Positions 12,743-62,732 of a stretch of 64,000 nt of DNA are shown in pieces. The notes beneath the pieces are model-generated. The model worked only from the letters and a program-made list of their open reading frames with translations, was not told the origin of the DNA and searched no databases. The DNA lies in assembly GCF_011067135.1 (NCBI RefSeq), contig NZ_JAAMOW010000004.1, positions 186,001 to 250,000 of the forward strand, read 5' to 3'. The position numbers and the translations under genes were made by a program. The stretch comes from Solimonas terrae. Its GTDB lineage: Bacteria > Pseudomonadota > Gammaproteobacteria > Nevskiales > Nevskiaceae. Position 1 is the stretch's first letter; the number at the start of each line of letters is the position of its first letter.

Positions 12743-13129
<387 letters not shown>

Positions 13130-13150
13130 GTGACCAGGGGGATACCAGAC

Positions 13151-14602
13151 ATGATGCGCAAATTATTGAGTGCCGCAGTGTTCGCGGCGATGTTCGGTCT
13201 CGCACCGGGCGCCTGGGCACAGGACGCGGCACCGGCACCGGCGGATGCAGCGCCTGCCGCTGCAGCCGAAGCGGCACCTGCTGCTGCCGATACCGAAGCG
13301 GCACCGGCTGCCGAAGCCCCTGCTGCTGCCGAAGCGGCCCCGGCCGAGGCTGCAGCACCGACGCCGACGCTCGACTCGGGCAACACCGCCTGGATGCTGA
13401 CGTCCATGGCGCTCGTGCTGTTCATGACCATTCCGGGCCTGGCCTTGTTCTACGCCGGCATGGTGCGGACCAAGAACGTGCTCAGCGTGATGATGCAGTG
13501 CTTCGCAATCACCTCGCTGGTGACGATCCTGTGGGCTGTCTACGCCTACAGCCTCGCCTTCACGTCGGGCAGCGAGTCGATGAACGCAATCGTCGGCGGC
13601 ACTTCGAAGTTCTTCATGAAGGGCATCGACGTCGCGGCACTGTCCGGCACGATTCCGGAAAGCGTGTTCATGTGCTTCCAGATGACCTTCGCGATCATCA
13701 CGCCGGCGCTGATCGTCGGCGCATTTGCCGAGCGCATGAAGTTCTCGGCGATGATGGTGTTCATGGGCCTCTGGCTGACGGTCTGCTATGCGCCGATCTG
13801 CCACATGGTCTGGGGCGGCGGCTGGCTGCAGGGCAAGGGCATCCTCGACTTCGCCGGCGGCACGGTCGTGCACATCAACGCCGGTATTGCCGGTCTGGTC
13901 TGCGCGCTGGTCCTCGGCAAGCGCAAGGGTCTGGGCGAAACCGCGATGAAGCCGAACAACATCGGCTACACGCTGATCGGCGCCTCGATGCTGTGGGTCG
14001 GCTGGTTCGGCTTCAACGCGGGTTCGGAACTCGCCGCTGACGGCGTTGCCGGTACCGCGATGATGGCGACCCAGATTGCGACCGCTGCGGCGGCACTGGG
14101 CTGGATGTTTGCGGAGTGGGCGATCGGCGGCAAGCCGACCATCCTCGGCATCGCGTCCGGTGCGGTTGCGGGTCTGGTGGCGATCACCCCGGCGTCCGGC
14201 ACGGCCGGCCCGATGGGTGCGATCGTGATCGGCCTGGCGGCCGGTGTGCTCTGCTACCTCGCGGCGACCAAGCTGAAGAACATGCTCGGCTACGACGACT
14301 CGCTCGATGCGTTCGGCGTGCACTGCATCGGCGGCATCGTCGGTGCGCTCCTGACCGGCGTCTTCGCGGCGCCGTCGCTCGGCGGCTTCGGTGCCGTCGG
14401 CACCGAAGGCCACAACGGCTTCGGCGCGCAGTTCACCGTCCAGCTGATCGGTGTGACGACGACGCTGGTCTGGTCGGGCCTCGGCAGCTACATCCTGCTC
14501 AAGATCACGGGTCTGCTCTGCGGCGGTCTGCGCGTCAGCGAAGATGCCGAAGCCGAAGGCCTCGATCTCGCGCTGCACGGCGAACAGGGTTATCACCTGT
14601 AA
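13151..14602 (+). CDS. amtB: Ammonium transporter AmtB
   Basis: A 483-residue trimeric ammonium channel. The signal peptide ends at AWA (residue 23) and 11 membrane helices follow a long linker. Twin-histidine pore motifs are visible in TVVHINAGIAG and FGVHCIGGIVG, and the periplasmic gate in ITPALIVGAFAERMKFSA. The linker, about residues 24-73, is almost entirely Ala, Pro and Glu repeats, longer than the few residues E. coli AmtB has there. AGGGGG lies about 10 bases before ATG 13151. An intrinsic terminator follows. Confidence 0.96.
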   Translation: MMRKLLSAAVFAAMFGLAPGAWAQDAAPAPADAAPAAAAEAAPAAADTEAAPAAEAPAAAEAAPAEAAAPTPTLDSGNTAWMLTSMALVLFMTIPGLALFYAGMVRTKNVLSVMMQCFAITSLVTILWAVYAYSLAFTSGSESMNAIVGGTSKFFMKGIDVAALSGTIPESVFMCFQMTFAIITPALIVGAFAERMKFSAMMVFMGLWLTVCYAPICHMVWGGGWLQGKGILDFAGGTVVHINAGIAGLVCALVLGKRKGLGETAMKPNNIGYTLIGASMLWVGWFGFNAGSELAADGVAGTAMMATQIATAAAALGWMFAEWAIGGKPTILGIASGAVAGLVAITPASGTAGPMGAIVIGLAAGVLCYLAATKLKNMLGYDDSLDAFGVHCIGGIVGALLTGVFAAPSLGGFGAVGTEGHNGFGAQFTVQLIGVTTTLVWSGLGSYILLKITGLLCGGLRVSEDAEAEGLDLALHGEQGYHL

Positions 14603-14632
14603 ATCGCGACAGCGGTACAACTCCGGTGGGTT

Positions 14633-14667
14633 GGGGCGGGTGCTTACGGCACCCGCCCCTTTTCTTT
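14633..14667 (+). terminator. Strong intrinsic terminator after amtB
   Basis: GGGGCGGGTGC (14633-14643) pairs perfectly with 14649-14659 over loop TTACG, then TTTTCTTT. Confidence 0.92.
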
Positions 14668-14732
14668 GGTCACGGGTTCGGGCCGGCGCGACGTGAATGC
14701 TAGACTTGCGGACGACTTTCGGAGCCCTAGCC

Positions 14733-15071
14733 ATGAAAATGCTGATTGCGATCATCAAACCGTTCAAGCTCGATGCCGTGCGCGAGGCGCTGGCAGACAT
14801 CGGCGTGCAGGGCATGACCGTGACGGAAGTCCGCGGATTCGGTCGCCAGAAAGGGCATACCGAGCTGTATCGCGGCGCGGAATACACGGTCGATCTGTTG
14901 CCGAAGGTGAAGCTGGAAATCGCGGTTTCGCCGGAAATGGCCGAGAAGGCAACGGATGCAATCCTCAAGGCCGCCAAGACCGGCCAGATCGGCGACGGCA
15001 AGATTTTCGTTTACGACCTCGGCCAGACGGTCCGCATCCGCACCGGCGAATCAGGTCCCGACGCGGTCTGA
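14733..15071 (+). CDS. glnB: Second P-II protein (GlnB/GlnK paralogue)
   Basis: A 112-residue P-II protein with all signatures: T-loop Y51 in YRGAEYTVDLL, the [14 protein letters not shown] segment and RIRTGE. It differs from the GlnK at 12791 at about 28 of 112 positions, chiefly in residues 65-75. Whether it is GlnB-like or a second GlnK cannot be settled from sequence; the gene next to it is an amt, which favours GlnK. GGAG lies 8 bases before the ATG. A TAGACT -10 box at 14701-14706, after the amtB terminator, suggests its own promoter. Confidence 0.93.
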   Translation: MKMLIAIIKPFKLDAVREALADIGVQGMTVTEVRGFGRQKGHTELYRGAEYTVDLLPKVKLEIAVSPEMAEKATDAILKAAKTGQIGDGKIFVYDLGQTVRIRTGESGPDAV

Positions 15072-53636: not shown

Positions 53637-54683
53637 ATGGAAAAAGAAGACGCTCGATTTCAGAAGTTGGAGCAATTGCACGAGAGGCGTAAGCAGGTCG
53701 TGCGATTGCATCTGCGGGGTACCGGCGTGATGGAGATCGTCGCGCTGACAGGGTTGAGCTACCCGGCGGTGCGCGGGGCGATCGACTTGTTCGCCCGAGG
53801 CGGCTGGTCGGCCATCAAGCCGGCCTGCCGGGGACGTGACAAGGGCGACGGGCGATTGCTCAACGCCGAGCAGGAGGCGTCGGTGCGACGCACGATCTGC
53901 GACAAGCGGCCCGAGCAGTTGAAGATGGAATTCGCGCTGTGGACCCGCGGCGCGGTCATGCAGTTCATCGAACGCGAATTCGGCGTGCGGCTGTCCATCC
54001 GCGCCACCGGCGAGTACCTGCGTCGATGGGGCTTCACGCCGCAGAAGCCGATCAAGCGCGCCTACGAGCAGCGCCCCGAAGCGGTCAAGCAGTGGATCGA
54101 CAACGAGTACCCGGCCATCGCGCGTCGCGCCAAAGACGAGGGCGGCGAGATTCACTGGGGCGACGAGACCGCACTGGTCAACACCGACGTGCGCGGTCGC
54201 AGCTATGCGCCTCGCGGCAAGACGCCGGTGACCTTGGCGGTGGGCGGGACGCGCGAGAAGCTGTCGATGATCTCCACCGTCACCAACCAAGGCTGCGCCA
54301 GCTGGATGATCATCGACGGGGCGTTCAACCACGAGCGGCTCATCGAGTTTCTGCAGGCGCTGGTGCGCGACGGCAGGCGCAGGCGCAAGAAGGTCTTCCT
54401 CATCCTGGACAACCTGGGCGTGCATCACTGCAAGCCCGTGAAGGCCTGGCTGGCCGATCACCGGCGCGACATCGAGGTGTTCTTCCTCCCCAGTTACAGC
54501 CCCGAACTCAACCCGGACGAGCGACTCAACGCCGACCTCAAGCAGACCATCGGCAGCAAGGTGCCGGTTCGCACCAAAGCCAAGTTGCGCGCCGCTGCCG
54601 ATGAACACATGCAATTCATCGCCGCCAATCGCAAACGAGTTCGGGCCTATTTCCAAGACCCCATCGTCAAGTACGCGGCGTGA
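53637..54683 (+). CDS. IS630 family transposase (DDE)
   Basis: A 348-residue transposase. A helix-turn-helix N-terminal half (GVMEIVALTGLSYPAVRGA) is followed by a DDE domain with D176 (WGDETALV), D258 (LILDNLGVHH) and E295 (PELNPDERLN). There is no frameshift, so the element could be active. It is fully inside the inverted repeats. Confidence 0.96.
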   Translation: MEKEDARFQKLEQLHERRKQVVRLHLRGTGVMEIVALTGLSYPAVRGAIDLFARGGWSAIKPACRGRDKGDGRLLNAEQEASVRRTICDKRPEQLKMEFALWTRGAVMQFIEREFGVRLSIRATGEYLRRWGFTPQKPIKRAYEQRPEAVKQWIDNEYPAIARRAKDEGGEIHWGDETALVNTDVRGRSYAPRGKTPVTLAVGGTREKLSMISTVTNQGCASWMIIDGAFNHERLIEFLQALVRDGRRRRKKVFLILDNLGVHHCKPVKAWLADHRRDIEVFFLPSYSPELNPDERLNADLKQTIGSKVPVRTKAKLRAAADEHMQFIAANRKRVRAYFQDPIVKYAA

Positions 54684-54906: not shown

Positions 54907-56625
54907 ATGCATAATGCGCCATCAAAGAAGGGGCGGACTCGGCTGAATCGACGTATGACCACGAAACCGAAGGGGAAAAGCTTGCGTGCTATCGACCTGT
55001 ATTCAGGCGTCGGTGGCTGGTCGCTGGGCCTCCGTCTCGCTGGGATCGAGGTTGTCGCATCGTACGAGCGCTGGGGCATTGCCAACGAGACGAACTTCAA
55101 GAACAACCATCACCAGGCTCAAACTGTCGACATCCGCCGGCTCGAGCTGGACGACCTTCCTGCGGACATCGACATCGTCGTTGGCAGCCCTCCGTGTACC
55201 CAGTTCTCTTTCTCCAACCGCGGGGGTAGCGGCGACCTGAAAGACGGACTCAAGGACGTGATCAAGTTCCTCGAGATCGTTGAGCACGTCCGGCCAAAGG
55301 TCTGGGCCATGGAGAACGTGCCGCGCATGGCCATGATCATTGAGAAGGAATCGAGGAAGCGAGGCGCCCTCCACAGATTCCAGTCGCTGGGGATCAACAG
55401 CCGCGTCCTCAACCTGGCCGAGTTCGGCGTGCCCCAGCGAAGGATGCGTTGCATCGCCGGCAATTTCAATTTCGACCTGCTGGACCGTTATCGTGAGACC
55501 ACACCAAGGTTAACCTTGGGTCAGATCATCGAGGCCTTGCGGGAAAAGAAACTCGTGGACCCAATCTTCGGCGTCGAAATTGCGGCCAATGAGCTGACAG
55601 ATCACGTCCCTGAGGAGCCGCTCAACGACGAGGAGGTCCGTATCAACCGTGCGGCCAAGACGACGCACACCGTCTACAACGCCATGTCGTTCCCCGACCG
55701 GAAGGATCGGCCTGTGCGGACCATCACTGCCACCTGTACCCGCGTGTCGCGGGAGAGCATCGTGATTGATTGTCCGGAACAGCCCGGGAAATACCGCCGG
55801 CTGACCGTGAGGGAGCGGGCGAGCCTGCAAGGTTTCCCGCTGAGTTTCCAGTTCTATGCTGAGAGCTATTCGCACAAGCTCCGGATGATCGGGAACGCGA
55901 TCCCGCCGGCCTTCACCTATCACCTCGCCCACGCATTGGTCGGGACACAGGCGGAGAAGGTCCGTGCTCTGAAAGTGGTGGGGACGGAGTTCAAGCACGC
56001 CGTTCCACTCGCCAAGAGTGCTCCTCTCGAGCGGGCGGGCGCGCGCTTCCCCCTGAAACGGCGTTTCAAGTTCGCCATCCCGAGCTTGCAGCTCAAGAGC
56101 GGCGTGCGTTTCGAGGTCTCCAACCGGGTCGACGTGGAGCCAGTGGCCTGGGGTGTCGATTTCTACTTCGGAACGTCGAAGTCGATCGTTAGCTTGAGGC
56201 TTGATGACCATCTGCAGGCGCGGTTGCTCAAACGGATGTCCCGCGATCTTAGGACGGGAGTCGACAGCACACTGGAAGCCCTCGTGGGCTTCCTTTCAGG
56301 CGCGTCGTTCGGTGACATGCAGCGGATTTGGTCCCACCGGGGCCCCGGAGCGACGACGCCGTTCATGCTTCTCGATCAGCTCGACCAGGCGGGCGCCGCC
56401 CTGGCGCTTATTTTCACGAAGCACGAGAGATACACGCTCGCGGCATTACATGACGCGATCCAAGAGGAGCATGGTGCAGGCTACGCCGATCACCTGCCGG
56501 GGGTGAACAAGCTGACTCGCAACTCGGCGCTGATCGTCGCTGGTCTTCTCGTCGGTTCCACAGCGAACCTTCACCTCGAAGGGAACGGTATCCAGAGAAC
56601 GCGACGTATCAAATCGGCCGCCTGA
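54907..56625 (+). CDS. C5-cytosine DNA methyltransferase with C-terminal extension
   Basis: A 572-residue enzyme that methylates cytosine C5 in DNA. Motif I AIDLYSGVGGWSLGL (28-42), motif IV GSPPCTQFS with catalytic C97, motif VI ENVPR (136-140), motif VIII QRRMR (177-181), motif IX RLTVRERASLQGFP and motif X MIGNAIPPAFTYHLA (to 341) are all in the standard order. After motif X about 230 residues remain; most dcm-type enzymes stop near there, so this is an extra domain I cannot identify. An inner ATG at 54955 is a possible start. It is convergent, 18 bp apart, with the DUF3883 operon. Confidence 0.93.
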   Translation: MHNAPSKKGRTRLNRRMTTKPKGKSLRAIDLYSGVGGWSLGLRLAGIEVVASYERWGIANETNFKNNHHQAQTVDIRRLELDDLPADIDIVVGSPPCTQFSFSNRGGSGDLKDGLKDVIKFLEIVEHVRPKVWAMENVPRMAMIIEKESRKRGALHRFQSLGINSRVLNLAEFGVPQRRMRCIAGNFNFDLLDRYRETTPRLTLGQIIEALREKKLVDPIFGVEIAANELTDHVPEEPLNDEEVRINRAAKTTHTVYNAMSFPDRKDRPVRTITATCTRVSRESIVIDCPEQPGKYRRLTVRERASLQGFPLSFQFYAESYSHKLRMIGNAIPPAFTYHLAHALVGTQAEKVRALKVVGTEFKHAVPLAKSAPLERAGARFPLKRRFKFAIPSLQLKSGVRFEVSNRVDVEPVAWGVDFYFGTSKSIVSLRLDDHLQARLLKRMSRDLRTGVDSTLEALVGFLSGASFGDMQRIWSHRGPGATTPFMLLDQLDQAGAALALIFTKHERYTLAALHDAIQEEHGAGYADHLPGVNKLTRNSALIVAGLLVGSTANLHLEGNGIQRTRRIKSAA

Positions 56626-56643
56626 TCCTTGCTATCGCGGTAC

Positions 56644-57606
56644 TCAGCCCCTGATCTCGTAACCATCCGCGCTGATCTGCCAGCCTGGCAGACCGGTGAG
56701 GAAGAACGCCGAGTGAGGGCCTCTGATGGCGAGGGCCGTGTACCCCTCGGTGGCCATCAAGTCGCGGTCGACAAGGTGCAGGCTGTATTGCTCCCCCAGC
56801 TCCTCGGCGACCTCCAGCTCGTTCCTGCTCCAGAAGAAGCGCCGCTCGCCACTGTAGGATTTCACCTCGATGTGCAGGTCGTGCCGCAATGAACTCAGGG
56901 AGGCGAAGGACAGGATGTCGAAACCGGCTGACACGTCCTCGTCAGATATGCGTCGGACCTGATCAAGCAGCGGATGGCCATGCAGTCGCTCCCTCTCCCT
57001 CGCCAGCACCCACTCCTCAGCGAGCAGCCCGTTCTCTAGGTCTCGCGCGCGCCTCGCCTCGAGTTGCTTGGTACTCACCCGCCGCCTGGAGTGTTGGACA
57101 TTCGCCTCGCGTGCGGCATCGAGGAAGATCGATTCGAAGTTGTCGGCCACCCGCCACAATCGGCTCGTGGCCCGCTCGCGGGCGGCCACGCCAAACTCGG
57201 CGACCCAGAGGGACACGCCATCATGTGATCCAGGCAGCGACAGTGAATCCAGCCACAGCCCGTTGCCGTTTGCGCCCGATTGCAGGCACCCAGCGGGGCC
57301 ACGGGTCGCCAAACGGGCACCGATCTCGATCGCCGTCATCCGGCCGATCTCCGCGCGCCATCTGGATGCGGGCCAGCCCTGTCCGACGCGGAGCCTGGCC
57401 TCGCCATCGACGATCTGGAGGGCATTGAACCTGCCAAGCATCCGCAAGGTGTTCAATGTCCTCGCGATCGATGCCGAGTTCGCGACCCGCATTTCGTGCG
57501 CGAGCCTGTCCGGGGTCGGCTGGCTCGACGATCCACCAATCAGGTTCAAGAGCGCATGGACCTGCTCGGCATCGAGCAGCCCGTCAGACTCCCTTGCGAC
57601 GCTCAT
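56644..57606 (-). CDS. DUF3883 (NOV_C) nuclease-like protein
   Basis: A 320-residue protein. The C-terminal half (about 190-310) matches DUF3883/NOV_C: EEWVLARERERL, then GFDILSF and LHIEVKSYSGE, giving a PD-(D/E)XK-like set D230, E247 and K249, and FFWSRNELEVAEELGEQYSLH. This is a common putative restriction nuclease domain. The N-terminal half (1-180) is unrecognised; residues 10-75 look like a winged-helix. The start at 57606 overlaps the helicase gene by 23 bp; ATG 57642 would add 12 residues. It is last in a three-gene operon. Confidence 0.8.
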   Translation of the reverse strand: MSVARESDGLLDAEQVHALLNLIGGSSSQPTPDRLAHEMRVANSASIARTLNTLRMLGRFNALQIVDGEARLRVGQGWPASRWRAEIGRMTAIEIGARLATRGPAGCLQSGANGNGLWLDSLSLPGSHDGVSLWVAEFGVAARERATSRLWRVADNFESIFLDAAREANVQHSRRRVSTKQLEARRARDLENGLLAEEWVLARERERLHGHPLLDQVRRISDEDVSAGFDILSFASLSSLRHDLHIEVKSYSGERRFFWSRNELEVAEELGEQYSLHLVDRDLMATEGYTALAIRGPHSAFFLTGLPGWQISADGYEIRG

Positions 57607-59548
57607 AAGCCTCGAGCACGGCGCGGATGTCGTCGTCGTCATCGCCGGACGCGGTGAGGAGCGGTATGTCCTCCGAATCGACGAGGTCGATGAGCCGTCG
57701 CTCCTTCATCTGAAGCCGCTGGTCGATATCGTCATCCACCGTGTCGCTACTCCCCAGGTAAAAGTAAGACACCAGACCGCCGCCGGCCGGGTTGTAGCGG
57801 TGGATTCGGTCCTTTGACTGGATGAAGCGGCCGGCGTTGAAGTCCCGGTCGTAGTAGATCGCCGTCCTGCACGCCTTGTGCAGCGAGATCGACTCGCCGA
57901 CCGCCTGCGGGTTGGCGACCAGGACGGCAGGGCCGGGAGTGGAATGGAAACGGTCGATGATCTCCTCGCGCGTGCCAAGCAGCTGCGCGTCATCGTCACC
58001 ACCGCCGACCGGCGTCACGCCGGTCAACTTCTCGAGGAAAGGCACACTCCCCCGGAACAGCCGCATTAGCCTGTCCAGGTTCCCAAGGAAGTAGGACCAG
58101 ATGAGCACCTTGCCGCCGGAATCCAGCGTCGTTCTGGCGAGCCTCTCGCAGATTTTCAGGCGCTCGAGGTCTCGTTCGACGTTGAACGCCCTCACCAGCT
58201 CGACCACCTCCTGCTCAGTCACCGAGTAGTCGGCGGCGATCCCGGCATCGAATAGTGCATCCCTTTCGATTGGCAGCAGTAGAAGTTCAGGGTTCACCGC
58301 GGCCTGCCGCAGCCGGATCAGCCTAGCCCTGACCCTCATCGGAACATTGGCGCTCGCCAAGTCCCGCCGGAACTGCGGAACGATCTTGGTCTCCAGCAGC
58401 CGGTAAATCCGCTCCTGCGCGGCGCCCATGGGAACCGGGACGCGATGCTCCTCGAAGGGCGGGAGGCCGAGATCCGATTTCCTGATCCTGGTGAAGAACG
58501 GCTTGATGCGCTCCTTCAGCTGGGGGACGGCCCGCTCCATGGACCCATCGGACATCGCCCGGAGGGTCGAGCTTGGGAATCCGACAACATCCCGCATCGG
58601 ATAGATGAACCGGAACAGGTTGACCAAATCCTCGTACCCGTTCGGGGCAGGGGTGCCCGTAAGCACCACGCGGCAGGAGGCGAGGCGAGCCAACCGCAAC
58701 GCTGCTGCCGCCCAGAAGCCATCCTCGTTCTTAATGTAGTGCGCTTCATCCAGAACCATCATTGTCGAGGGCCCGAACCTACGCAGGAAGGCCGTGAATC
58801 CCTCCTCTGAGTTGGCCAGGGTCTGGTATGAGGTTAACGTCAGTTCAACACCTCGCGCCTCAGGTGTGATGCCCTTCAGGTAGTCGTTCCGGTCCTCCGC
58901 CGGCGTGGCGCCAGAGATTCGCCGCGTAATCGGGGTCCTGTTGAAGATCGCGCGGTATTCGTCCTCCCAAGCTTTGAAGGACGACAGGGGGCCGACGATC
59001 AACAGTCGGTCGATCGCCTTCCCGTCCACCGCCGGTGACGCCTTCAGGTAGGCATATGCCGCGTAGACGATTGATGTCTTGCCCGCGCCAGGCACCGAGA
59101 AGTTGCAGGCGTTATGGGCGAAGGCAAGGTGGAACGCCGACAGAAGCTGCTTCCGATAGAAGGTGCGGCCGACGCACGCAGCCTCGACCGCGGCGACAAA
59201 TCTCCGGAACTCTTCCGTATCGAGGTTGCGACCCCAAATCTCGGCTGCAAGGGCGCTGAATCTGGCGAACTCCTCCGACTCCTCTCTGACGGCGTCGAGA
59301 GCCGATGAGATGCCACGCTCGAGATCAAACCCGACGCCAGCGTTCTGGAGCAGCTTCTCGATGGTCCGGAACTGCTGGGACAGGCTCTTCGTTCCGGTCG
59401 GGAGACGGAGTGTCCCATCCGGTCCAGTCTGTCCTCCTTCCTTGCAGAAGTGCGCGGCGAACATCGGGCTGCGCAACAGCCGCGGCCCGGCTCCGGTGAT
59501 CGTCACCGCCTTCTCGGCCTCCAGGTATCCGAGCTGGACCTTGTCCAT
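57584..59548 (-). CDS. SNF2-type DEAD/DEAH box helicase/translocase
   Basis: A 654-residue superfamily 2 ATPase. About 125 N-terminal residues of unknown role precede the motor: Walker A VPGAGKTS (152-159), motif Ia IVGPLSSFKAWEDEY, DEAH box VLDEAHYIKN (267-270) and motif III VLTGTPAPNG. The second lobe has ANPQAVGESISLHKACRT and SKDRIHRYN, the SNF2 motif V/VI region. A run of aspartates lies near the end. It probably moves along DNA for the DUF3883 protein. It starts 12 bp after the ParB-like gene. Confidence 0.92.
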   Translation of the reverse strand: MDKVQLGYLEAEKAVTITGAGPRLLRSPMFAAHFCKEGGQTGPDGTLRLPTGTKSLSQQFRTIEKLLQNAGVGFDLERGISSALDAVREESEEFARFSALAAEIWGRNLDTEEFRRFVAAVEAACVGRTFYRKQLLSAFHLAFAHNACNFSVPGAGKTSIVYAAYAYLKASPAVDGKAIDRLLIVGPLSSFKAWEDEYRAIFNRTPITRRISGATPAEDRNDYLKGITPEARGVELTLTSYQTLANSEEGFTAFLRRFGPSTMMVLDEAHYIKNEDGFWAAAALRLARLASCRVVLTGTPAPNGYEDLVNLFRFIYPMRDVVGFPSSTLRAMSDGSMERAVPQLKERIKPFFTRIRKSDLGLPPFEEHRVPVPMGAAQERIYRLLETKIVPQFRRDLASANVPMRVRARLIRLRQAAVNPELLLLPIERDALFDAGIAADYSVTEQEVVELVRAFNVERDLERLKICERLARTTLDSGGKVLIWSYFLGNLDRLMRLFRGSVPFLEKLTGVTPVGGGDDDAQLLGTREEIIDRFHSTPGPAVLVANPQAVGESISLHKACRTAIYYDRDFNAGRFIQSKDRIHRYNPAGGGLVSYFYLGSSDTVDDDIDQRLQMKERRLIDLVDSEDIPLLTASGDDDDDIRAVLEAYERRKGV

Positions 59549-59560
59549 GATCCGGTCCGA

Positions 59561-60859
59561 TCAGCCCCGCCGCTCGAAGCGTTTCTTCATCTCGTACGTC
59601 AGCTGATTCAATTCGCGGACCAGAGTCAGATTGTCAGGGTCGGCGATCAGGCTATCGTCCTCGATGTCGATCTTCTCCAATGCGAGCTTCGCCTTGACCA
59701 GCAATTCCCGCGGCTTCAAGACCTCCATCCGGTAGTACAGCTTGTCCCCGGCGGTGCCGAAGTTCCTCTTCATCGCGGAATCGACGGTATCCCGCCACTC
59801 ACGGTCGCGTGCAATCGCCGCCTCGGTCTTCGTCCCGTGATGCGGATTCTTGGCTATGTACGTCTCAAGGTCATCCGCAGTCGCGGTGATGGGATCCACC
59901 ACCTTGCCGTGTTCCCCCGCGAACTCCCTCCAAATGTCCTCGTGGCAGTAGAAGTTCTTGCTGTTGCCCTGATGGGAGATGGCGCGGTACGACTTCTTCG
60001 CGTCGGCGAATTCCCCGAAACGTATGTAATCGAACTGGATGGTGCGCAGGCGGAGCTGGTCGAACTCGTCCTGGACCCAGGGGACCTTGGCGTTCTTCCC
60101 CTCGATCCGCTTCAGGTCACTATAGAGGTCAACGAACATCCCCTCCTTGGTCCCATCAGCATCCTTCAGCATCGTGTAGAGCCGAGGACAGCCAATGTGA
60201 TCGAGGTAGGCGTCCATCAGCTGCATGATTGCAAGAAGCCGGGCGGCGTATCCCTTTTCCCTGCCCATGAGCGAGTCGATCTCTTCCTCTTTGATATCGA
60301 GATCGACACGCAACCTCCTAGCATGGAGGTACTTCTGGATCGGCCCATATTCGACCTTGGCGTCCTCGCCGAGCTGGTACTGCGTCTCGAGCCGGACGAT
60401 CTCCTTCTCATTATCGGCATAGGCATCCGGCAGGATGATCGCCTCGAGGTACTGCGGCTGATGCTCTTGGATTCCCAGACGCTCCAACAGCATCGCGCGA
60501 CGGTTGCCATCGATGATCACGCCATCCAGGCTGACGATGCCTGGCCGCTGCTGTTGCTTCTTTTTGAGGTCAGCGAGGGTTGCCTCATTCCTTCCCTCGT
60601 TGAGTTCCCACAGCAGCGACTTGATCTTGTCGTGCTTTTCCTGAGTGTACGCCGTGGGGGCCTGATGCTCCTGCATCCAAGTGAGCATCTCGGCTTCGAT
60701 ACGGCCGTTGTGCTCATTGAAGATCAGCAAGTCCAGGCTGATCCGGTGGACGGGAAAGGTCTGCGCTCGACCCTTGTAGAAGAGCTTCTGCGTTCCTTCA
60801 GGCTTCGACTTCAGAAGCTCGGAGAGCTTCTCCTTACGGACGGATGCCGAGACGACCAT
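59561..60859 (-). CDS. ParB-like protein with DGNRR motif
   Basis: A 432-residue protein. The segment around residues 34-125 (FPVHRISLDLLIFNEHNGR ... VIIDGNRRAMLLERLG, DGNRR at 117-121) matches the ParB/Srx-like nucleotide-binding core and recalls the DGQHR proteins of DNA phosphorothioation clusters. The remaining 300 residues are mostly helical and unrecognised. It is first in the operon with the helicase and DUF3883 genes, so a regulatory or DNA-binding role in the same system is inferred. AGGGG lies about 6 bases before the ATG. Confidence 0.78.
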   Translation of the reverse strand: MVVSASVRKEKLSELLKSKPEGTQKLFYKGRAQTFPVHRISLDLLIFNEHNGRIEAEMLTWMQEHQAPTAYTQEKHDKIKSLLWELNEGRNEATLADLKKKQQQRPGIVSLDGVIIDGNRRAMLLERLGIQEHQPQYLEAIILPDAYADNEKEIVRLETQYQLGEDAKVEYGPIQKYLHARRLRVDLDIKEEEIDSLMGREKGYAARLLAIMQLMDAYLDHIGCPRLYTMLKDADGTKEGMFVDLYSDLKRIEGKNAKVPWVQDEFDQLRLRTIQFDYIRFGEFADAKKSYRAISHQGNSKNFYCHEDIWREFAGEHGKVVDPITATADDLETYIAKNPHHGTKTEAAIARDREWRDTVDSAMKRNFGTAGDKLYYRMEVLKPRELLVKAKLALEKIDIEDDSLIADPDNLTLVRELNQLTYEMKKRFERRG

Positions 60860-60942
60860 ATTTTCCCCTGCTCGTTTTGATTATTGAACACGCCACAGAC
60901 CTCGCTTGGCGGCGCACCAGCGCTTCGTCAACCAAAAGAACT

Positions 60943-61312
60943 CTAGCCCAGAAACGCCCTCAGCTTCCCGGCCCACCGATCCAGATCGCTCACCTCGCAT
61001 TCCCAGACTGTAAGCATTTGGTAGCCCATCTTCTCGAGCTTCGCCGAGCCCCTGCGTGACGAGCCTTGTTGGCGGTGAATTTACCTTCCCAGAACGCGGT
61101 CCGCGACTTTGGAATTCTGGCTAGCGGGCAAAAGGCATGCGCGCGCCAGACGCACCCGTGGACAAAGATGGCCTTCCGCCTTTTCCTGAAGATCAAATCC
61201 GGCCTGCCTAGGAGGCGGGAAGCGTGGAGACGGTATCGCGATATCCCATGGCGTGCACGAGTCACCGGGCGGCCATCTCCGGGCGCGTATCCCGCGCTTT
61301 GATCCGGCTCAT
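60943..61312 (-). pseudogene. vsr: Frameshifted very-short-patch-repair endonuclease (vsr) remnant
   Basis: Read on the minus strand from ATG 61312, the N terminus MSRIKARDTRPEMAAR is followed by a stop, then LVHAMGYR in the same frame. The gene continues in another frame with YRLHASRLLGRPDLIF, KRRKAIFVHGCVW, IPKSRTAFWEGKF. A second shift restores KLEKMGYQMLTVWECE and ends at a stop at 60943-60945. Together these cover a whole Vsr, the T:G mismatch nicking enzyme that partners C5 methyltransferases. One internal stop and at least two frameshifts make it non-functional unless they are sequencing errors. Confidence 0.85.
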
Positions 61313-61448: not shown

Positions 61449-62732
61449 TCAGCCCACGCTCTCAATCAACGCCACGCTCCCCTGCCCACCATCGGCACAG
61501 ATGCTGACAATCGCGCGCGTGCCGGCGGGCATCGCGGCGAGTTCCTTCACGGACTGGCTGAGGATGCGGGCGCCGGTGGCGCCGAAGGGATGGCCGATGG
61601 CGACGCTGCCGCCGTTGGGGTTGACGCGCTCGCGCGGGAAGGCGCCGAACTCGAAGTTCACGCCGGCGCGATCGCGCAGGAACGCCTTGTCTTCGAGCGC
61701 CTTGATGTGGAACAGCAGCTGCGCGGAGAACGCCTCGTGGATTTCCCAGAGCGCGATGTCTTCGTACTTCAGGCCGTGGCGCGCGAGCAGGCGCGGGATC
61801 GCGAACGCGGGCGCCATCAGCAGGCCTTCGTGGCGGAAGTCGATCGAGGCGATTTCCCAGTCGACGAGCTTCACGCGCGGCGTGTTCGCCGACAGCCTGG
61901 CGAGGCCGGCTTGCGTGCCGACCCAGATCGCGGCGGCGCCGTCGGTCAGCGGCGATGAGTTGCCGGCGGACAGCGTGCCCTGGCCGCTCTTGCGGTCGAA
62001 GGCCGGCGGCAGCTTGCCGAGTTTTTCGAGCGAGGTGTCCTTGCGCGGAATGCCGTCGCGCTTGACGTCGCCGACCGGCACGACCAGATCGTCGAAGAAG
62101 CCGCGTTCCCAGGCCGCCACCGAATTCTGGTGGCTGGCGAGGGCCGAGGCGTCCTGCGCGTCGCGCGGGATCTGCCATTCCTTGGCGGTGATCTCGGTGT
62201 GCTCGCCCATCGACAGGCCGGTCGTGCGGTTGGTGACGGCCGGGATGTAGAGCTTCACATCGCCGAGCTTGAGATCGCGGATCGCCGCGAACTTGTCGCC
62301 GACCGACTTCGCCTTCTGGAACTTGCGCAGCCAGTCGCTGAGCGTCTGCGTCAGGCCGACCTGCACGCGGCTCATGCTTTCGACGCCGCCGACGAGCGCG
62401 AGCTGCCGGCTCGAATCGTTGAGCATGCCGGCCGCCTCGAACGCGCCGATCATGCTCGTCGAGCAGGCCATGATCGTCGAGAACGCGGTGATCGTCGGCG
62501 GCGCGCCGGCCTCCATCAGGATCTCGCGGGCGATGTTGCTCCAGGTCAGGTTCGGCACGACGCTGCCCCAGACCGCGAAGTCCGGCGTCGCGCCCTTGGC
62601 GAGCATGGCCTGCACGACCGGCACGGACAGCGCGATCGCATCGTGCTGCGCCAGTGCGCCGTCGACCTTGGTGAACGGCGTACGCACGCCGCAGGCCAGC
62701 CAGATTTCGGGATGCGCAGCGGTCGTGACCAT
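61449..62732 (-). CDS. Acetyl-CoA C-acyltransferase (thiolase, FadI-like)
   Basis: A 427-residue thiolase of fatty-acid beta-oxidation or acetoacetyl-CoA metabolism. The nucleophile is C90 (TIMACSTSM), the His motif is WEIHEAFS, NPNGGSVAIGHPFGATGAR is the catalytic His loop of the FadI-type branch, and the second Cys lies in SICADGGQG. Length fits FadI. No hydratase/dehydrogenase gene lies beside it. The 136 bp between it and the vsr remnant show no gene. Confidence 0.94.
   Translation of the reverse strand: MVTTAAHPEIWLACGVRTPFTKVDGALAQHDAIALSVPVVQAMLAKGATPDFAVWGSVVPNLTWSNIAREILMEAGAPPTITAFSTIMACSTSMIGAFEAAGMLNDSSRQLALVGGVESMSRVQVGLTQTLSDWLRKFQKAKSVGDKFAAIRDLKLGDVKLYIPAVTNRTTGLSMGEHTEITAKEWQIPRDAQDASALASHQNSVAAWERGFFDDLVVPVGDVKRDGIPRKDTSLEKLGKLPPAFDRKSGQGTLSAGNSSPLTDGAAAIWVGTQAGLARLSANTPRVKLVDWEIASIDFRHEGLLMAPAFAIPRLLARHGLKYEDIALWEIHEAFSAQLLFHIKALEDKAFLRDRAGVNFEFGAFPRERVNPNGGSVAIGHPFGATGARILSQSVKELAAMPAGTRAIVSICADGGQGSVALIESVG

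Follow-up and report, generated by a model that had tools for sequence, protein, structure and literature searches.

In the window, a 64,000-nucleotide stretch of the Solimonas terrae genome (contig NZ_JAAMOW010000004.1, positions 186,001 to 250,000), four intact genes occupy positions 54907-60859 and make up a candidate defence cassette. A gene for a C5-cytosine DNA methyltransferase (MTase) on the plus strand is convergent with a tight minus-strand operon that encodes a ParB-like protein, a Snf2-family ATPase and a DUF3883 protein, and a vsr remnant adjoins the ParB-like gene on its upstream side (Table 1). A preliminary description of this DNA had already listed these adjacent genes and the remnant, and our gene models and Pfam scans bear it out. 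The spacing it gave is also exact: the 12-bp gap corresponds to positions 59549-59560 and the 23-bp overlap to positions 57584-57606. The vsr remnant scored 57.4 bits against TIGR00632, whose cut-off is 97.85.

Table 1. Genes and features at the cassette locus, in window coordinates
Feature	Position	Strand	Details
C5-cytosine DNA methyltransferase	54907-56625	+	572 amino acids (aa); PF00145 1.7e-43
DUF3883 (NOV_C) nuclease (putative)	56644-57606	-	320 aa; PF13020 1.5e-11 (scan with the longer start at 57642)
Snf2-family ATPase/translocase	57584-59548	-	654 aa; PF00176 2.3e-23
ParB-like protein	59561-60859	-	432 aa; no Pfam family at E 0.1
vsr pseudogene (very-short-patch repair endonuclease remnant)	~60943-61312	-	Vsr similarity across three frames, internal stop in one
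IS630-like (DDE_3) transposase, outside the system	53637-54683	+	PF13358 9.6e-33, PF13592 1.1e-23

Loci for comparison were chosen from genomes through an alignment of the Snf2 protein alone, the best 80 of 546 confirmed matches being retained, and their reading frames were called and searched with profiles. These 80 loci are the closest to the Snf2 protein of the window, and the shares reported here are valid within that range. Seventy-nine of them were usable: L069 was excluded because its Snf2 gene is split, though it holds MutH-like, C5 MTase, ParB and DUF3883 genes, and the split Snf2 gene of L116 was counted as present. A ParB-like gene was found directly upstream of Snf2 in 72 of 74 testable loci, and both loci without it (L068 and L090) lie near a contig end, with 526 and 616 bases before Snf2. 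DUF3883 followed directly downstream of Snf2 in 65 of 76 loci (67 of 76 with a wider profile). Flanks of 4 kb or more on either side were available for 46 loci; every one of these contained a DNA MTase gene (35 C5, 9 D12 and 2 N6/N4), and Vsr was present in 15 of them. Four genes from the same loci served to train the D12 and N6/N4 profiles; Pfam confirmed such a partner in 12 of the 15 labelled loci, with L089, L090 and L092 outside the Pfam check.

Of 100 genomes from the phylum of the window, 56 contained any C5 MTase, mostly one to a few genes each and at most eight, and by our rough estimate a random stretch as long as these loci would contain one in well under 5% of cases. Reversing the choice, we selected contigs of a viral collection by ParB and obtained 18, two of them ending at the contig edge; Snf2 adjoined ParB in 16 of the 16 contigs with room, one of these genes being split. 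The ParB alignment succeeded as a query in this collection, and the window's single Snf2 protein confirmed zero close relatives there. The co-occurrence of the gene set exceeds chance. Such adjacency in both directions speaks against a reading in which the ParB-like protein serves a mobile element in partition or transcription and stands beside a restriction system by chance, as might be taken from its annotation as a ParB/RepB/Spo0J partition protein on some plasmids. The evolutionary distances of ParB and Snf2 are also strongly correlated (see below), and a scan of three short gaps in the window revealed no parS-like palindrome. We consider this reading extremely improbable.

The ParB-like protein consists of a ParB/Srx N-domain with a DGNRR motif, a ParB-like DNA-binding region and a helical C-terminal part. 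Residues N51, R53, Q103, G113, N119, R120, R121, E158, Q162 and Y171 are identical in 61 of 61 proteins. Its predicted model (mean predicted local distance difference test score, pLDDT, 92.4) gave Noc as the best Foldseek match (7nfu, 3.5e-4), with pNOB8 ParB and Myxococcus ParB next among the top matches, whereas VIA ranked KorB first (Z 10.8, 197 residues aligned, root-mean-square deviation (rmsd) 4.9), followed by pNOB8 ParB (Z 9.7) and Noc (Z 9.6, 203 aligned, rmsd 4.4). A sequence search against solved structures yielded no meaningful match for this protein or for the DUF3883 protein. The ParB-like protein is thus predicted, on the strength of its model, to share the N-domain and the DNA-binding fold of the ParB/Noc/KorB clamp family. 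The preliminary description had used the label "ParB/DGQHR-like"; the fold predicted here is that of ParB/KorB/Noc.

The GERR motif is absent from the ParB-like protein, with GNRR (N119-R121) in its place in 61 of 61 sequences, while the first Glu of ENLQR is kept as E158, again in 61 of 61. For Bacillus subtilis ParB, the available text of PMC8494293 states that both Glu residues are required for hydrolysis of cytidine triphosphate (CTP) and that Gln at either position permits clamp closure. Together with this behaviour, the invariant Asn where GERR has Glu suggests, from its position in the motif, a clamp that would bind nucleotide but hydrolyze it slowly or differently.

The DGNRR motif also recalls the (I/V)DGQQR of DUF262, as given in the accessible part of PMC10952713, and DUF262 is thought to sense modified bases in GmrSD. 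A type IV-like, modification-dependent system might be imagined on this ground, in which the ParB-like domain would sense foreign modified bases and steer the nuclease to modified phage DNA; an AspBHI-like gene that PADLOC labels methyl-directed lies just downstream in L061 and L083, in keeping with this. The fold search, however, puts Noc, ParB and KorB first, and, with an MTase present at all 46 loci with room, we see nothing that favors the modification-dependent mode offered in the preliminary description. We therefore regard such a mode as very improbable.

The DUF3883 protein was modelled with high confidence (pLDDT 93.5) as an N-terminal winged helix (~12-75) followed by a C-terminal PD-(D/E)XK-like domain (~183-320). 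In VIA-align comparisons, the N-terminus reached Z 10.0 to a winged helix, and residues 183-320 gave modest Z values to chain Y of 9qcc, a SPARDA filament component that is presumably a nuclease (Z 9.4, 113 aligned, rmsd 4.1), and to the Holliday-junction resolvase Hjc (Z 8.7, 102 aligned, rmsd 2.8). Foldseek returned no match to this model at E 0.001. All 59 aligned rows have the same residue at E197, E204, D230, E247, K249 and E263. The domain is accordingly predicted, from model and alignment together, to have a PD-(D/E)XK fold with a D...ExK triad (D230, E247, K249), and the triad residues outweigh the modest fold Z values as evidence. Since the triad is retained in all 59 rows, at loci with and without another restriction endonuclease (REase), the predicted nuclease appears to have been kept active. 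DUF3883 is termed a novel REase domain in the available text of PMC3710099, and a 2023 survey treats it, in the part accessible, as a presumed type II REase group (PMC10609329).

The Snf2 protein contains Walker A (SVPGAGKT), DEAH, LTGTP and QSxDRIHR motifs, the letters of which are invariant across 12 aligned proteins except at A155, A269 and H583, the last being nearly invariant. A PHROGs search assigned Snf2 to helicase families and gave no family for the ParB-like or DUF3883 proteins. In the C5 MTase, the recognised domain (~27-344) is followed by a C-terminal extension of ~220 aa without a recognised family. Among 25 long MTases, S94, P95, C97, E136, N137, V138, R179 and R181 are identical in every protein and P96 in 24; judged by this alignment, the catalytic residues are intact. 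The C-terminal extension was also considered as a fused REase, and this was rejected: hhalign found no match to the DpnII-like family, and no nuclease motif is evident.

To what extent the four genes travel together was apparent from their evolutionary distances in 48 loci with all four genes. Rank correlations were 0.84 for ParB-Snf2, 0.86 for Snf2-DUF3883 and 0.76 for ParB-DUF3883, and 0.46-0.49 for each of these three against the C5 MTase; the pairs are non-independent, and MTases of two lengths share one alignment. The higher correlations within the ParB-Snf2-DUF3883 trio indicate that the trio moves together while the MTase is replaced. On a quick FastTree tree of 106 Snf2 proteins (106 rows, 5 loci skipped), the eleven partner labels require 20 changes, against a minimum of 10 and a shuffled mean of 57, so the partners are inherited yet have been swapped several times. 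ParB-Snf2 is the constant pair, and MTase and nuclease are exchangeable modules.

The range of partners is considerable. Initial REase profiles covered the DpnII-like, BglII-like, MutH-like and type III families. Among the 46 flanked loci, 18 combine a C5 MTase and DUF3883 with no DpnII-, BglII- or MutH-like gene, 14 have an added DpnII-like REase, one a BglII-like and two a MutH/Sau3AI-like gene (one of these without DUF3883). Four D12 and two N6/N4 loci consist of an MTase plus the trio, and five further D12 loci are without DUF3883, two of them with an HNH-like domain fused to ParB. An MTase with the trio and none of the three profiled type II REase families is therefore found in 24 of 46 loci. 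For the DpnII-like family, the one protein scanned scored 20.1 bits, the Pfam cut-off being 23. The N6-methyladenine (m6A) branch includes compact ParB-Snf2-DUF3883-MTase operons, and at L077, L078, L082, L085, L087 and L089 the profiles recognise nothing beyond these genes. Besides the HNH-like domain fused to ParB (Pfam matches in three proteins, all sub-threshold), a PLD domain is fused to Snf2 on the Priestia plasmid L008 (PF13091 2.3e-8, one protein). The nuclease slot is thus taken by three unrelated folds, DUF3883, PLD and HNH-like, as would be expected if cutting were the shared function.

Some loci carry further genes beside the set. An AspBHI-like gene with Mrr_cat and the PADLOC label methyl-directed lies at L061:13090-14349 and L083:13226-14485 (PF18062 3.2e-76 and 1.9e-54), and such a nuclease adjoining a C5 MTase is a puzzling combination. 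In the archaeal locus L079 (Thermoplasmata), ParB-Snf2-DUF3883 stands with a 707-aa N6/N4 MTase carrying DUF1156 (12800-14920), a partner possibly taken from another defence system. A PNP_UDP_1 phosphorylase-family gene, a possible nucleotide-targeting effector, is located directly upstream of ParB-Snf2-D12 MTase at L088:7670-8440, where DUF3883 is missing, and L091 has a gene of equal length at the matching position. An AbiEii-like nucleotidyltransferase gene (PF08843 2.1e-21) occupies the position directly upstream of ParB-Snf2-MTase at L093:6953-8002. Finally, at L017:15753-19328, the MTase and Vsr genes of the cassette have as their neighbour a gene for an AAA ATPase that contains a PRTase-CE domain (PF24390 2.1e-36) and may be a further defence gene.

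The set is rare in the single phylum sampled, at about 1%. A wide ParB profile (A3) matched 5 of 398 genomes of the window's phylum, including the window's own; of the other four matches, L132 and L133 have ParB-Snf2-DUF3883 and MTase genes, L131 has ParB alone and L134 is cut at a contig end. The first ParB profile (A1) matched 8 of 398, the three additional matches being weak. One copy of the ParB-like protein is present in the window's own genome, and none was found in 145 other relatives. The match in L131 (8460-10028) is a 522-aa ParB-like homologue, and the ParB family may also work alone. By record titles, the genome loci come from Pseudomonadota, Bacillota, Bacteroidota, Chloroflexota, candidate phyla and one archaeon.

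Among plasmid records, 134 match Snf2, some of which perhaps belong to another family, and 68 match ParB. Plasmids of Mesorhizobium, Azospirillum and Rhizobium carry ParB-Snf2-DUF3883, and a C5 MTase and Vsr are close by. The protein HYP280, found on the alphaproteobacterial plasmids, matched no Pfam family (one member scanned). On a Kozakia plasmid, the trio is present and no MTase was recognised in the stretch fetched. ParB adjoins a longer Snf2 protein on Exiguobacterium and Priestia plasmids, with dcm genes nearby, and ParB-Snf2 follows type III mod-res on one plasmid each of Enterococcus faecium, Lactococcus and Lactiplantibacillus. Type III mod-res also stands beside ParB-Snf2 in three contigs of the viral collection. 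In a Streptococcus equi prophage record (Javan191), DpnII-like, ParB, Snf2, DUF3883 and C5 MTase genes are contiguous. On Enterococcus plasmids, a protein of 864-869 aa precedes ParB-Snf2 at L005:3847-6456 and L013:3864-6458, and the L005 copy, the one scanned, gave a sigma-70 region 4-like match and a weak match to a helix-hairpin-helix.

This presence on plasmids and in a prophage record, and the patchy occurrence among relatives, would suit a mainly selfish addiction module, in which a host that loses the MTase would have its chromosome cut, so that the plasmid, prophage or island is retained, with phage defence secondary. Chromosomal examples also exist (among them L015, L036, L044 and L080, and L061 of Fictibacillus enclensis), and ordinary defence systems are likewise plasmid-borne, so that location does not discriminate between the two. 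We hold this explanation to be improbable.

The observations made here cover gene content and order, the conservation of active-site residues, predicted folds, the co-variation of the genes and the exchange of their partners. On this basis we propose that the cassette is a putative ATP-dependent restriction-modification (RM)-like defence system built on a ParB-type clamp, to which we assign a probability of roughly 0.58. Selections made independently, by Snf2 in genomes, by ParB in the viral collection, among plasmids and from a prophage record, all recover the set, and this counts in its favor. We infer all of the biochemical steps, including nucleotide use by the ParB-like protein, the choice of the site-reading subunit and phage restriction. 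The MTase would mark the host's own DNA; the ParB-like protein, probably a nucleotide-gated dimeric clamp, would load onto unmarked DNA and recruit or anchor the Snf2 motor; the motor would translocate along DNA, and the DUF3883 nuclease, with its predicted winged helix and PD-(D/E)XK domain, would cut it. ParB-Snf2 would then be the constant engine, and MTase and nuclease the modules that can be swapped. From the interpretation in the preliminary description, the recurring unit, the MTase as likely self-marker and the lack of a match to a named system in the libraries scanned can be retained; its modification-dependent mode is not supported. Seen in this way, the cassette would belong with the ATP-dependent, RM-like systems, and its ParB-type core would be unusual among them.

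In type I and III enzymes, the MTase acts as the site reader. Since the trio serves MTases of differing chemistry, either the MTase itself reads the site here as well, or the trio is sequence-blind and depends on its partner. A more specific mechanism is possible, and we put it forward tentatively: a ParB-type sliding clamp would license restriction by closing in a nucleotide-dependent manner, staying closed (the first catalytic Glu being Asn), spreading from unmethylated sites and serving as a platform for Snf2 and an interchangeable nuclease (DUF3883, PLD or HNH). If so, a chromosome-partition clamp would have been re-used as a restriction engine that pairs with C5, m6A and type III modification.

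Several observations weigh against an RM-like system in which the trio does the cutting. In 17 of 46 loci, one of the profiled type II REase families is represented by a separate gene. In the 24 loci without one, Mrr_cat was found in four of 79 neighbouring genes (among the 25 commonest of 122 Pfam families); the genes of L061 and L083 (AspBHI-like) and L076 (Mrr-type) all lie just downstream of the set, and the fourth was not placed. L077 contains a second NOV_C gene, and additional REases may be present among the less common families. Because of these Mrr_cat and second NOV_C genes among the neighbours, 24 of 46 is an upper bound for loci where the nuclease of the trio stands alone, and a second nuclease is common at these loci. 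In addition, three D12 loci are without any nuclease recognised by the profiles. Two of three Enterococcus plasmid loci (L005 and L013) have ParB-Snf2 and the sigma-like helix-turn-helix protein with no MTase recognised within ~8 kb, a Streptomyces plasmid has ParB-Snf2-DUF3883 without a recognised MTase in 14.6 kb, and in L131 the profiles found no Snf2, DUF3883 or MTase in 18 kb.

The main rival builds on the frequent second nuclease, that is, on the 17 loci with a separate type II REase gene and on up to four more with a nearby Mrr_cat gene. According to it, the ParB-Snf2-DUF3883 trio is blind to sequence and supplements an ordinary RM system, either following up after the REase cut or serving as a backup when the REase is blocked. 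The position of ParB-Snf2 behind type III mod-res, on the Lactobacillales plasmids and in the three viral-collection contigs, and the swapping of MTases relative to the trio are consistent with it as well. Against an add-on as the general role stand the loci, at most 24 of 46, that lack the profiled REase families and include the compact m6A operons. We consider the add-on unlikely, although it deserves more weight than the other rivals.

The surroundings of the cassette in the window fit a mobile cassette. In a genome of the same genus (G003), only 2.36 kb separates the two genes that flank the cassette here, and this interval shows no DNA similarity to the cassette; in the window organism the distance is 7.95 kb. 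The insertion sequence (IS) mentioned in the preliminary description is the IS630-like transposase gene, which separates the chromosomal flank from the cassette on the MTase side; a search for its ends gave weak inverted repeats and no clear IS ends. Codon use less GC-rich than in the flanks had also been noted, and this holds to a modest degree: GC content at third codon positions is 0.76-0.80 across the four cassette genes, compared with 0.80-0.92 across eight reading frames nearby, one of which is the transposase. An 18-bp tandem repeat of 2.6 copies was seen at 62451-62497, within a neighbouring thiolase-like gene.

Should the RM-like system be confirmed, it would be a widespread defence operon for which neither the PADLOC 2023 nor the NCBIfam 2026 library has a name, it would unite a ParB nucleotide clamp and a Snf2 translocase in one enzyme system, and it would make testable how one restriction engine serves unrelated kinds of MTase. 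It would also account for genes whose present annotation is partition protein, SNF2 helicase or DUF3883 protein. Scans with PADLOC-DB 2.0.0 and NCBIfam 20.0 matched no named system. The preliminary description, which had seen no fit to known systems, had named two outcomes that would speak against it, the lack of a recurring neighbourhood and a full match to a named system, and neither was encountered. A description of the operon was not found in the available text of open-licence PMC papers, the scope of the search; subscription papers, preprint servers and REBASE lay outside it, and a name may exist there. PADLOC 2.0.0 matches were generic (type II MTase and Vsr) or weak (ZorD, DpdE and DrmD for Snf2; PDC-S36, PD-T4-1 and TmtA for DUF3883), and the ParB-like protein had none.

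With DISARM, the cassette shares a Snf2 ATPase (DrmD) and a C5 MTase (DrmMII). The PADLOC match of Snf2 to DrmD was weak (1.8e-9), and the MTase matched DrmMII at 1.1e-29 but type II MTase models better, at 1.7e-52; the NCBIfam DrmD models, which have cut-offs of 610 and 950 bits, gave scores of 22.2 and 19.8, unlike a DrmD-type helicase. DISARM loci are defined by DrmA, DrmB and DrmC, and PADLOC showed no match to these among the five cassette proteins (best 25 matches for two of them) and seven flanking proteins (E 1e-10) within 50-64 kb. Type I Zorya combines a ZorD-type helicase with ZorA and ZorB; the ZorD score was 40.9 bits against a cut-off of 1500, and neither ZorA nor ZorB was among the PADLOC matches listed. 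Among the genes of the window cassette, Pfam recognised no REase of a classical family; DUF3883 could serve as the cognate REase of an orthodox type II pair. Type III Mod and Res subunits were likewise not found, the weak ResIII-domain match lying inside Snf2.

Further likenesses were found in the literature. The RM neighbourhoods of MORC/paraMORC contain a Snf2 helicase, a cytosine MTase and Vsr and, in the available text of Iyer 2008 (PMC2292703), are defined by a GHKL ATPase, unlike the cassette; no GHKL ATPase was found among the cassette genes or, with a two-sequence profile, in the 46 loci (0/46), and one lies near the ParB-Snf2 set on two alphaproteobacterial plasmids. BREX-related (Hma/DUF499) systems likewise have a Snf2-family helicase, an MTase and a nuclease in one operon (PMC12839542). 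As far as the accessible part of that paper goes, their defining genes encode an AAA+ ATPase of the DUF499 type and an MTase of the N6 type, whereas the cassette family has a ParB-like protein and mostly C5 MTases; DUF499 was not in the Pfam results for the cassette, and the window MTase is a C5, not an N6, enzyme. The DUF1156 domain in the MTase of L079 corresponds to the BR-MTase domain of the same text.

CglI and NgoAVII resemble the cassette in having a DNA MTase, a separate helicase-like ATPase and a separate nuclease, with cutting that needs nucleoside triphosphate hydrolysis (PMC4267653, PMC5737866), and differ from it in that the available portions of these papers describe two restriction proteins and name no ParB-like protein. 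The ParB-like protein itself is like the ParB/Noc/KorB clamps in the predicted fold of its N-terminal ~300 residues, in the RR of GERR and in the first Glu of ENLQR, and unlike them in having GNRR for GERR and in its cassette partners, Snf2 and a nuclease.

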